Shown one piece after another: positions 30,877 through 42,901 of a stretch of DNA of 64,000 nucleotides. The DNA lies in contig NZ_MWQN01000002.1 of the NCBI RefSeq assembly GCF_002024165.1, positions 1,116,001 to 1,180,000 on the forward strand. The letters run 5' to 3'. The DNA comes from Embleya scabrispora. Its GTDB lineage: Bacteria > Actinomycetota > Actinomycetes > Streptomycetales > Streptomycetaceae. The notes under the pieces are model-generated. The model saw nothing but the letters and a program-made list of their open reading frames with translations, was not told where the DNA came from and did no database searches. A program made the position numbers and the translations under genes. Position 1 is the stretch's first letter. Each line of letters begins with the position of its first letter.

Positions 30877-31929
30877 TCAGCGGCCGCCGACCCCGCTCGC
30901 GCACTCGTGGTCGGCGGCGGGGACGTCCGGGATCGCGCCGAGGCCGATCGTGGTGAGCAACTCCGGTCCGAAGGTGATGATCTCGGTGATCAGGCCGTTG
31001 TCGATGCGCAGTACGTCGAGGGCCGTCGCGGTGAACGCGCCCACGCCCGGCCGGCGGACGTAGTGCCCCACCGCGGGCCGGCGGTTCATCGCCAGCGGCA
31101 GCGCCTCGCGCTCGCCGTGCCCGGGGGCATCCGCCGGGATGGGCCTGCGCATCTCCACGATGGCGGGCCGGCCGGTGTACACGAGCCGGGCCGGGGGGAT
31201 CGCCTGGCGGGCGTCCGCGTGCAGCAGGGCCGCCAGTGCCGCCGGGTCGGCCCGGCGGGACGCGGTGATGTAGCGCTCCAGGCAGGCGCGTTCGGCGTCA
31301 TCGGGCTCGGCCGGCCGGTCGCGGTTCGTCGGGTGGCGGTCGGGCAGTTCCTCGCGCAGGGTTCGTCGGGCCCGTTGCAGGGCGCTCTTGACGCCCGCGA
31401 CGTTCATGCCCAGCGTGTCGGCGGTGTCCGCGGCCGGCCAGTGCACGACGTCGCGCAGGATGAGCGCGGCGCGTTGGCGGGGCGGCAGGTGCTGGAGTAC
31501 GGCCACGAAGGTCGGGTCGAGCGTGTCGCGGCCGACGGCCGCCCCGTCCTCGGGTGTGTCCGGGAGGGGCTGGAGCCAGGGGACCTCGGCGAGGGCCGAA
31601 CGCACCGGCTCGCCCGCGCCGTTCGTGGCGATCGCGATCTCCCGTCGACACCGCGCCGGGGCGGCCGCCGTGTCCAGGCACGCGTTGGTGGCGATCCGGT
31701 ACAGCCACGACCGGAACGGCGCGTGCCCGGTGAACCCCCGGCGCGCCCGCCAGGCCCGCAGCAGGGTCCGGTCGAGGACTTCCTCGGCGTCGGTGAACGA
31801 GCCGAGCATGAGATAGCAGTGCACGCGCAGATCCTTGCGGTGGTGCTCCGCCAGTCGTACGAACGCCCCCTCGTCCTCGGCCCGAACCGCGGCCAGGACC
31901 CCCCGCGCTACATCGTCGGACGTACTCAC
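30877..31929 (-). CDS. ECF sigma factor with C-terminal SnoaL-like domain (SigG-like)
   Basis: A 350-residue extracytoplasmic-function sigma factor. Region 2 covers about 1-90 (CYLMLGSFTDAEEVLDRTLL, RAWRARRGFTGHAPFRSWLY, RIATNACLD), region 4 about 135-190 (LPPRQRAALILRDVVHWPAA), and residues 200-330 form an NTF2/SnoaL-like tail. The EVPWLQPLPD linker is typical of the SigG/TIGR02960 group. In such sigma factors the tail replaces an anti-sigma factor as the control domain. No anti-sigma gene is adjacent, consistent with that. The GTG at 31929 has GAGG 5 nt upstream. Confidence 0.88.
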   Translation of the reverse strand: MSTSDDVARGVLAAVRAEDEGAFVRLAEHHRKDLRVHCYLMLGSFTDAEEVLDRTLLRAWRARRGFTGHAPFRSWLYRIATNACLDTAAAPARCRREIAIATNGAGEPVRSALAEVPWLQPLPDTPEDGAAVGRDTLDPTFVAVLQHLPPRQRAALILRDVVHWPAADTADTLGMNVAGVKSALQRARRTLREELPDRHPTNRDRPAEPDDAERACLERYITASRRADPAALAALLHADARQAIPPARLVYTGRPAIVEMRRPIPADAPGHGEREALPLAMNRRPAVGHYVRRPGVGAFTATALDVLRIDNGLITEIITFGPELLTTIGLGAIPDVPAADHECASGVGGR

Positions 31930-41302: not shown

Positions 41303-41635
41303 GATGGCCAGTCCTTTGCTCGGGGATCGGCGGCGAGCGGCGCACTCGCCCTCGGATCGAAGCATGGGGCACACCGACGGCGCCACGCTGAACACCTCAC
41401 GAACGCCGTGCGAAGCACACCGGGCGGGCGTCCGGTGCGGCGGGGTCCGGGGCGGGTCCGCGTGCGCCCGGCCCGTCCGTCACAAAACGGTGGCCTGGTT
41501 CGTCATAACGGTGATGGAGCGGGACCGCCCGGGCGTGGGGATGCACCCGGGCGGGCACGTCCCGGTCCGTTCCGATGGCCGACCACACCCGCCCGCCCCG
41601 GCGCCCGTCCGGGCGTCGACCCCGAGGAATCGATC

Positions 41636-41701
41636 ATGCAGCTCACGACGCATCTCGCGACGCATCTCGCGACGCATCTCGCGACGAATCGACCACGATG
41701 A
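41636..41701 (+). CDS. Possible 21-residue repeat-encoded leader peptide
   Basis: ATG 41636 starts MQLTTHLATHLATHLATNRP, behind GAGGA 7 nt upstream. It is built on a 12-bp tandem repeat. Its TGA (41699-41701) overlaps the ATG at 41698 of the Cse2-like gene in an ATGA overlap. The Cse2 gene has no ribosome site of its own, so this leader may be how it is translated. Confidence 0.45.
   Translation: MQLTTHLATHLATHLATNRPR
41646..41681 (+). repeat. 12-bp tandem repeat ahead of the Cse2-like gene
   Basis: CGACGCATCTCG is present three times in perfect tandem (41646-41657, 41658-41669, 41670-41681), with a partial fourth copy. A change in copy number would keep frame. Confidence 0.85.
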
Positions 41702-42279
41702 CCGCGCCGCCGATACCGCGCGTCTCCGCGTATTGGGCGCCGTGGGAGCACGCGTTGCACACGTTCCTGGCGCGGGTCCACGGCGATCGCCGGTTGGCCG
41801 CCCGATTCCTGCCGGCCGCGACGACCGACCCGCCCGTGTCCGCCGTGGAGGCGATCACCGCCCACCTGCCCGTCACCCTCGAACGCCGCCTGGCCGCCCG
41901 GGCCGTGCGGCACGCGGTGGCGCTGTACGCGGCGCACCAGGGCTCCCTCACCGGCGGCCTGCACCGCCCGGACGGCACCTCGATCGGCGCCGCCTGCCGG
42001 GACCTGGCCCGACTGATCGCACCCGACCACACCCTGGTGCAACGCCGCGAACGCACCCGCTTCGACGGCGCGGTCGAGGCCGAGACCCTGGACGAACTGT
42101 CCACCCGCCTGCACCCGTTGATGGCCGACCTGGGCCGCCGCCGGATCGCCTTGGACCACGTGCGCCTGGCCAAGGACCTCCTGTGGTGGGAAACCCCGGT
42201 CGGCCGCCGCTACACCCGAAACCGCTGGGAGGAGGACTTCCACGACCTGACCCCCCAACTACCGCACCACGACGGCTGA
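41698..42279 (+). CDS. Orphan Cse2/CasB-like protein (type I-E CRISPR Cascade small subunit)
   Basis: A 193-residue helical protein. Aligned by eye with Thermus Cse2, it shares the features of the family: WEHALHTFLARVHGDRRLAA, RHAVALYAAHQ for Cse2 VAALYALKDG, the GTSIGAACRDLARL segment, VQRRERTRFDGAVEAETLDE, IALDHVRLAKDLLWW for IDFARLLDDLLRW, and GRRYTRNRWEEDFH at the C-terminus for HVQARWAREYY. In Cascade this subunit dimerises along the crRNA backbone and holds the non-target DNA strand. No cas8/7/5/6, cas3, cas1/2 or repeat array is in the window, so it is an orphan. The start follows an upstream leader frame; an alternative in-frame ATG is at 41575. Confidence 0.75.
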   Translation: MTAPPIPRVSAYWAPWEHALHTFLARVHGDRRLAARFLPAATTDPPVSAVEAITAHLPVTLERRLAARAVRHAVALYAAHQGSLTGGLHRPDGTSIGAACRDLARLIAPDHTLVQRRERTRFDGAVEAETLDELSTRLHPLMADLGRRRIALDHVRLAKDLLWWETPVGRRYTRNRWEEDFHDLTPQLPHHDG

Positions 42280-42370
42280 TTGATGTCACGCCACCCCGGC
42301 CCGCCGACTCGTGGGCCGGCCGGTCGACTTCCGGGTCCGGTGTCCGGGAGGCCGCCGGCATGATCGGGGC

Positions 42371-42901
42371 ATGACTGTGATCGAGATCGTGCAGGGTGAC
42401 ATCACGCGCCAGGACACGGACGCCATCGTGACCGCCGCGAACGAGTCGTTGCTGGGCGGCGGCGGCGTGGACGGGGCGATCCACCGTGCGGCGGGTCGAC
42501 GGCTCGCGGCGGCGGGGGCCGAGATCGGGCCGTGCGATCCGGGCGACGCGATGGCGACGCCGGCCTTCGACCTGGATCCGCCGGTGCGTCACGTGATCCA
42601 CACCGTGGGGCCGGTCTGGGAGGGGGGTGACTTCGGCGAGGCCGAGGTGTTGGGGTCCTGCTATCGGCGTTGCCTGGAGGTTGCGGATGAACTGGGGGTG
42701 CGGAGCCTGGCGTTTCCGGCGATCGCCACCGGCGTGTACGGATTTCCGGCCGAGGAGGCCGCGCGGATCGCGGTGGCGACGATCGTGGGGACGTCCAGCG
42801 CTGTCGAGCGGGTACGCCTGGTGGCGTTCGATCGGGAAGGGCGGGACGCGCTGGAGGAAGCGCTCGCCTCGGTCGGCGAAGGGTCCGCGGTCACCTCGTG
42901 A
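42371..42901 (+). CDS. Macrodomain protein, probable O-acetyl-ADP-ribose deacetylase
   Basis: A 176-residue MacroD-type domain that would hydrolyse ADP-ribose esters. Its ADP-ribose-binding sites are clear: IEIVQGDIT, VTAANESLLGGGGVDGAIHR (the substrate loop with catalytic Asn/Asp), RHVIHTVGPVW and SLAFPAIATGVYGFPAEEA. The ATG at 42371 follows a purine-rich CGGGGC. It lies 92 bp after the Cse2-like gene on the same strand. It may act on metabolic O-acetyl-ADP-ribose or on ADP-ribosylated proteins. Confidence 0.9.
   Translation: MTVIEIVQGDITRQDTDAIVTAANESLLGGGGVDGAIHRAAGRRLAAAGAEIGPCDPGDAMATPAFDLDPPVRHVIHTVGPVWEGGDFGEAEVLGSCYRRCLEVADELGVRSLAFPAIATGVYGFPAEEAARIAVATIVGTSSAVERVRLVAFDREGRDALEEALASVGEGSAVTS

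Follow-up and report, generated by a model that had tools for sequence, protein, structure and literature searches.

A Cse2-family gene that stands outside a cas operon, behind an ECF41-type promoter signature, is conserved in one genus, Embleya, and is, as far as its sequence can tell, an unusual and real variant of a CRISPR component. The gene (41698-42279, forward strand) encodes a 193-aa homologue of Cse2/CasB (Cas11e) and lies in a 64-kb stretch of DNA, referred to here as the window. A lone CRISPR subunit gene under a stress-type promoter suggests a new job for the subunit. The chances appear evenly balanced that a single gene derived from Cse2 has been recruited into the ECF41 regulon and that its predicted nucleic-acid-binding product acts outside the cas operon. 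The more specific proposal, that the Cascade small subunit has been exapted as a stand-alone, ECF41-controlled stress protein which would handle single-stranded nucleic acid or R-loops without a crRNA complex, is put forward tentatively. A preliminary description had noted an orphan cse2 with a leader peptide and a macrodomain gene; as a whole this observation could be confirmed, and its single claims fared differently, as set out below.

Family membership and the missing Cascade genes

The product of 41698-42279 was recognized by PF09485 with 64.2 bits (cut-off 24.6, E 2.2e-17; residues 61-182 on profile positions 31-137), by TIGR02548 with 49.9 bits (cut-off 28.5, residues 31-182) and by five PADLOC Cas11e models. 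The Pfam search, a check proposed in the preliminary description, places the protein in the Cse2 family; the resemblance claimed there along its whole length did not extend to the first 30-60 residues, which are unmatched. Because the Pfam match comprises residues 61-182 only, the N-terminal third is divergent. The closest solved structure is 4h79_A, annotated as a Cse2-family protein (E 3.5e-7), followed in rank by designed repeat proteins aligned over short pieces only. An AlphaFold2 prediction with 3 sequences yielded an all-helical model of low confidence (pLDDT 44).

The family residue is kept in all four Embleya orphans at 18 of the 32 listed family columns, including H80 Q81, H89, G97, A99, R101, L103, R121, L152 D153, W164, R174 and W177. 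Positions 33 (G), 45 (W), 82 (Q), 88 (M) and 154 (Y) are substituted in all four, turning HQQ into HQG and LDY into LDH; here and for the basic residues, positions 31-45 depend on an uncertain N-terminal alignment. Seven columns are basic (at least 80% Lys/Arg) among 51 other Cse2 rows, namely 60 phmmer hits after removal of the three loci of the orphans and of six redundant sequences. Five of these seven (31, 36, 101, 121 and 174) hold Arg in every orphan and the remaining two (139 and 146) vary; the net charge is only +2 to +3 in three of the orphans, which counts against the reading preferred here. Cse2 arginines are described as touching Cas7 and steering the non-target strand (review, PMC5965380). 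A mapping of the DNA-binding arginines of E. coli Cse2 onto the orphan was dropped at an hhalign probability of 0.7%.

Profile searches of the whole window genome (G000; 10.96 Mb in 8 contigs, 98.6% complete) returned no match to Cse1 (PF09481), Cas7e (PF09344) or Cas1 (PF01867), and for these three families the designation as an orphan holds. The Cas1 model did detect the E. coli control. PF09481, PF09344 and PF09485 were all silent on the Escherichia coli control genome, so that a very divergent Cse1 or Cas7e might escape them, and cas1 is reported to be absent from some I-E systems of Streptomycetaceae (PMC12231136). The genome-wide cas search, likewise proposed in the preliminary description, did bring up a second Cse2 gene (40.7 bits) on contig C5 (131755-132504, equal to L003:11756-12505). 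This copy is also alone: none of the nine neighbouring ORFs examined has a Pfam match, and a plasmid relative was sought and none found.

Across 297 genomes of the family, Cse2 occurs in 138 and Cas7e in 137. Only G000 and G131 hold Cse2 without Cas7e, and only G282 shows the reverse. Two Cse2 matches occur in each of Embleya hyalina (G001) and E. scabrispora (G002), whose single Cas7e match lies beside the Cse2 that is not the orphan. A further genome of the genus, G003, an assembly of ~1650 contigs, has one Cse2 and one Cas7e, and the orphan profile matches nothing in it. The same survey revealed a Cse2 match at G059:C1:5602320-5602781 with no Cas7e match on its contig, and two Cse2 domains in a single open frame, with a Cas7e match nearby, in L060 (G087), L075 (G191), G014, G071 and G108; by their sequence, the double-domain frames suggest fused Cse2-Cse2 subunits.

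Orthologues, chromosomal sites and selective constraint

Close orthologues of the orphan turned up in three other Embleya: E. hyalina with 93% identity, E. scabrispora with 72%, and Embleya sp. NBC_00888 with 72% in a comparison over residues 1-184. One of the searches used two exact 7-residue patterns and detects close relatives only. Outside Embleya, only weak matches were obtained in the 297 family genomes (best 58 bits, with the best 11 candidates per genome scored) and in 394 genomes of the class (best 57 bits, with the best 8 candidates per genome scored); they span mostly residues 60-190 and stay at the ordinary Cse2 level. Phages and viral contigs yielded no relative, and scans of the viral contigs with the orphan and the canonical Cse2 profiles bore this out. 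In a tree calculated without L002, L006 and L007 (the second copy of the window genome, the non-orphan Cse2 of E. scabrispora and the Cse2 of G003), the four orphans group together in one clade with a support of 100/99, whose stem measures 2.4 changes per site compared to 0.19 for the median end branch; the placement of this clade is unsure owing to long branches, as flagged by a treekit warning.

The four genes occupy two chromosomal sites. In the window and in E. hyalina, an LTD/phytase-like gene lies on one side and the macrodomain and ABC genes on the other. In E. scabrispora and NBC_00888, the gene is found near genes for HAD_SAK_2 of the RNA-repair type (L010:7379-7996 and L079:7284-7805), Ku (L010:3321-4280), a sigma factor and a glycosyltransferase; the NBC_00888 copy is carried by a linear replicon of 5.7 Mb that is annotated as a plasmid and classed as mobilizable. 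Common to all four loci is a block of promoter, leader and cse2, and CCGTCACAAAA and TTCGTCATA are conspicuous amid diverged DNA in a three-species alignment. Four immediate neighbours were checked and none is a cas gene.

The dN/dS ratio is 0.34 for the window and E. hyalina and ranges from 0.29 to 0.42 across the six pairs of the four Embleya. Non-synonymous changes between the window and E. hyalina lie below the neutral expectation (P 0.003-0.007 for 15/30). When changes were polarised, 8 synonymous and 3 non-synonymous ones fell on the E. hyalina branch and 4 synonymous and 5 non-synonymous ones on the window branch, with 4 synonymous and 6 non-synonymous changes assignable to neither. Constraint is clear between Embleya species, and the window's own branch is compatible with none. 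As the window lineage is the one in which no Cascade was found, this lessens the certainty of a Cascade-independent role.

The distribution of the gene and its constraint bear on two rival explanations. The orphan might be a host-encoded modulator of the type I-E Cascade which, under ECF41 control, replaces the small subunit or titrates Cas7e and thereby tunes CRISPR activity, in the manner of viral Cas homologues that take over the place of Cascade subunits. A Cascade-linked role is possible because E. hyalina and E. scabrispora combine the orphan with another Cse2 that is linked to Cas7e; the E. hyalina branch shows the clearest constraint, and AcrIB3, a Cas5 mimic, is reported to substitute for Cas5 in Cascade (PMC13131331). 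However, the window genome retains an open orphan gene with no match to Cse1, Cas7e or Cas1, phages and viral contigs hold no relative, and G003 has Cas7e but no orphan orthologue could be found among its ~1650 contigs. We consider a modulator unlikely.

Alternatively, the gene could be the relic of a lost Cascade that is open by chance. Its fast divergence from canonical Cse2 and the window branch, which is not demonstrably constrained, would fit such a history, as would the second lone Cse2 on C5, an indication that stray copies occur in the window genome. Against this, the gene is intact in four species at a dN/dS of 0.29-0.42, it is accompanied by the same promoter and leader at two sites, none of the four neighbours checked is a cas gene, and the Cse2 stretches inspected in Embleya and elsewhere lack the ECF41-type promoter. 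A relic is improbable. The preliminary description had left the choice between a repurposed module and a decayed Cascade; its interpretation is partly supported, the former being better backed by the four species, the dN/dS values, the promoter in four of four and the joint occurrence of promoter, leader and cse2 at two sites. Decay fits less well overall, although the window branch on its own would be compatible with it.

Promoter signature, leader and macrodomain gene

Recruitment of a Cse2-derived gene into the ECF41 regulon, the reading preferred here, builds on a feature absent from the preliminary description and present in all four orthologues. The sequence CGTCACA-n16-CGTC at 41478-41504 (forward strand) resembles the ECF41 promoter consensus, TGTCACA-n16-CGTC (Wecke et al., 2012; PMC3426412). 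The search pattern was derived from this consensus and set before the sequence of the fourth species, NBC_00888, was inspected. YGTCACA-n16-CGTC occurs once in the 64-kb window, where 0.12 occurrences are expected, and lies upstream of cse2 in four of four orthologues with a spacing of exactly 16 bp. The first base of the -35 element is C instead of the consensus T in three of the four species; NBC_00888 carries an exact TGTCACA-n16-CGTC within DNA otherwise unlike that of the other three. No such site was found at a spacing of 15-17 in 65 other stretches (280 kb), a set of 60 short Cse2 loci (some genes being represented twice) and five longer stretches, one of them devoid of Cse2, that overlap or adjoin four of the short loci; the set also overlaps in part with the second orphan.

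In the window genome, the pattern occurs 24 times and its reversed form 3 times. For eight of the 24 sites, a full-length SigX4-type sigma gene is found no more than 2 kb away, where 0.15 such sites would be expected. Full length was judged by profile coverage and assigned to 14 of 49 sigma matches; only four of these 14 exceed the curated cut-off. Nine hand-picked genes behind such sites were subjected to a Pfam scan and comprise two carboxymuconolactone decarboxylases, two NAD-binding epimerase-like proteins, three ECF sigma factors (two with a SnoaL match below cut-off), one MFS transporter and one LigT-like protein. The LigT-like (2'-5' RNA ligase superfamily) and MFS genes are found at L082 (G000:C1:6041813) and L086 (G000:C2:353274). 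When the orphan and these nine genes are set aside, 8 of the 14 remaining sites are not followed by any ORF that passed the filter on codon-position G+C, so that some of the 24 sites are probably chance occurrences.

Neither an ECF41 sigma gene nor a COE (carboxymuconolactone decarboxylase/oxidoreductase/epimerase) gene adjoins the orphan cse2. The window contains no full-length ECF41 gene, the nearest full-length ECF41-type match being ~53 kb off, and one partial, weaker sigma match at 31210-31845. About 30% of ECF41 genes are reported to have no COE neighbours (PMC3426412). As a lead only, the cognate sigma factor may be sought first in the ECF41-type sigma gene at C3:405367, which scores 250 bits and thus less than the curated cut-off, and whose promoter shares the C variant and the GTTCGTC end with that of the orphan.

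The ECF41-like site could be fortuitous and the gene be read from an ordinary promoter, given that the first -35 base departs from the consensus in three of four species and that several of the 24 genomic sites have no gene behind them. This is very unlikely, since the spacing of 16 bp is exact in four of four cases, the chance of a site is ~3e-4 per 250 bp at the site density of the genome, and the C variant is also found ahead of an ECF41-type sigma gene (L093).

Inspection by eye located a leader ORF of 21 codons at 41636-41701 (forward strand), with its ATG at 41636 and a stop codon that overlaps the cse2 start as ATGA (41698-41701). It is preceded by a Shine-Dalgarno-like GAGGAA (41624-41629, also by eye), which is identical in E. 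hyalina and reads AAGGA in E. scabrispora and NBC_00888. A Shine-Dalgarno-like sequence, an ATG, a short ORF and a TGA overlapping the cse2 ATG as ATGA are present in four of four orthologues, the other three leaders having nine codons each: MRLTTNRPR in E. hyalina, MPFPIECAR in E. scabrispora and MAFTTWCAR in NBC_00888. The window leader equals that of E. hyalina plus 36 bp of a 12-bp repeat and one residue change; the tandem repeat (41638-41690, forward strand, 4.4 copies) is restricted to the window species. The 21-residue ORF and the ATGA overlap of the preliminary description were thus borne out, and its THLA repeat had to be discarded as a conserved element, being an in-frame expansion of a leader that has nine plain codons in E. 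hyalina. An in-frame N-terminal extension of Cse2 was rejected as another explanation of the repeat: across the four species, the open frame upstream of the cse2 ATG measures 61, 43, 12 and 12 codons and has no resemblance between the two species pairs, and the start of the protein, MTAP.I.RVSAYW, is kept. The overlap itself is little telling, as ATGA arises whenever codon 2 begins with A. More telling are an upstream ATG in the frame that ends at the overlap, the ribosome-binding sequence ahead of this ATG and the absence of one before cse2 itself, which suggest translational coupling of leader and cse2.

The gene at 42371-42901 (forward strand) encodes a macrodomain protein (PF01661, 134.6 bits; NF001664, 202.8 bits with a cut-off of 200). 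Its identity had been correctly assigned; its pairing with cse2 did not stand, since the two genes lie side by side in the window species and E. hyalina alone. As the repeat is confined to the window species and the macrodomain gene is missing from the second chromosomal site, the conserved unit includes neither of them. Structure in the interval separating cse2 from the macrodomain gene found no support (z -0.57). The dS of the macrodomain gene relative to E. hyalina is 0.25, compared to 0.08-0.14 for neighbouring genes, perhaps as a result of recombination. That the two proteins are operon partners in ADP-ribose or nucleic-acid repair metabolism is highly improbable: the 91-bp gap on the same strand is retained in E. 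hyalina, and HAD_SAK_2 and Ku near the gene at the second site are loosely repair-like, but the E. scabrispora (20 kb) and NBC_00888 (16.5 kb) stretches have no macrodomain match and the only one of E. scabrispora is 53% identical and on a different contig.

Proposed mechanism and relation to known systems

In the preferred reading, a signal would switch on an ECF41 sigma factor, SigJ-like and with a SnoaL C-terminal domain, which would then initiate transcription at the signature at 41478-41504. Ribosomes would load at GAGGAA, because no Shine-Dalgarno sequence is seen before cse2, translate the leader and restart at ATGA. Under stress, the Cse2-family product would then bind nucleic acid in single-stranded form or in R-loops, outside the cas operon; neither Cse1 nor Cas7e was detected in the window genome as a possible partner.

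If kept without its complex, a Cascade small subunit would show clearly that a Cas protein can work outside immunity, and a concrete sigma-factor link between a stress response and a CRISPR-derived protein would be at hand. The ECF41 regulon would also be wider than the targets found by Wecke et al., who report the COE and ECF41 genes as the sole detectable conserved ones (PMC3426412). Among the matches listed in a search of the open literature, titles and the beginnings of abstracts reported no orphan or exapted Cse2 and no ECF41- or Embleya-CRISPR case like this one.

Lone homologues of Cas subunits outside cas operons are also known from the viral anti-CRISPR proteins AcrIB3 and AcrIB4 (PMC13131331). 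In contrast to these, the orphan is conserved in a genus, has no counterpart in phages or viral contigs and is present where no Cascade was found. With the genes of the ECF41 regulon, the orphan shares the TGTCACA-n16-CGTC-type promoter at the exact spacing of the published consensus (PMC3426412), but it encodes neither a COE protein nor a sigma factor and has no adjoining ECF41 gene. Its nearest relative is Cse2/CasB (Cas11e) of the type I-E Cascade, with which it shares the Pfam, NCBIfam and PADLOC matches and 4h79 as the best solved relative, and from which it differs by a genome with no cas7e or cse1 match, a divergent N-terminal part and an ECF41-type promoter of its own.
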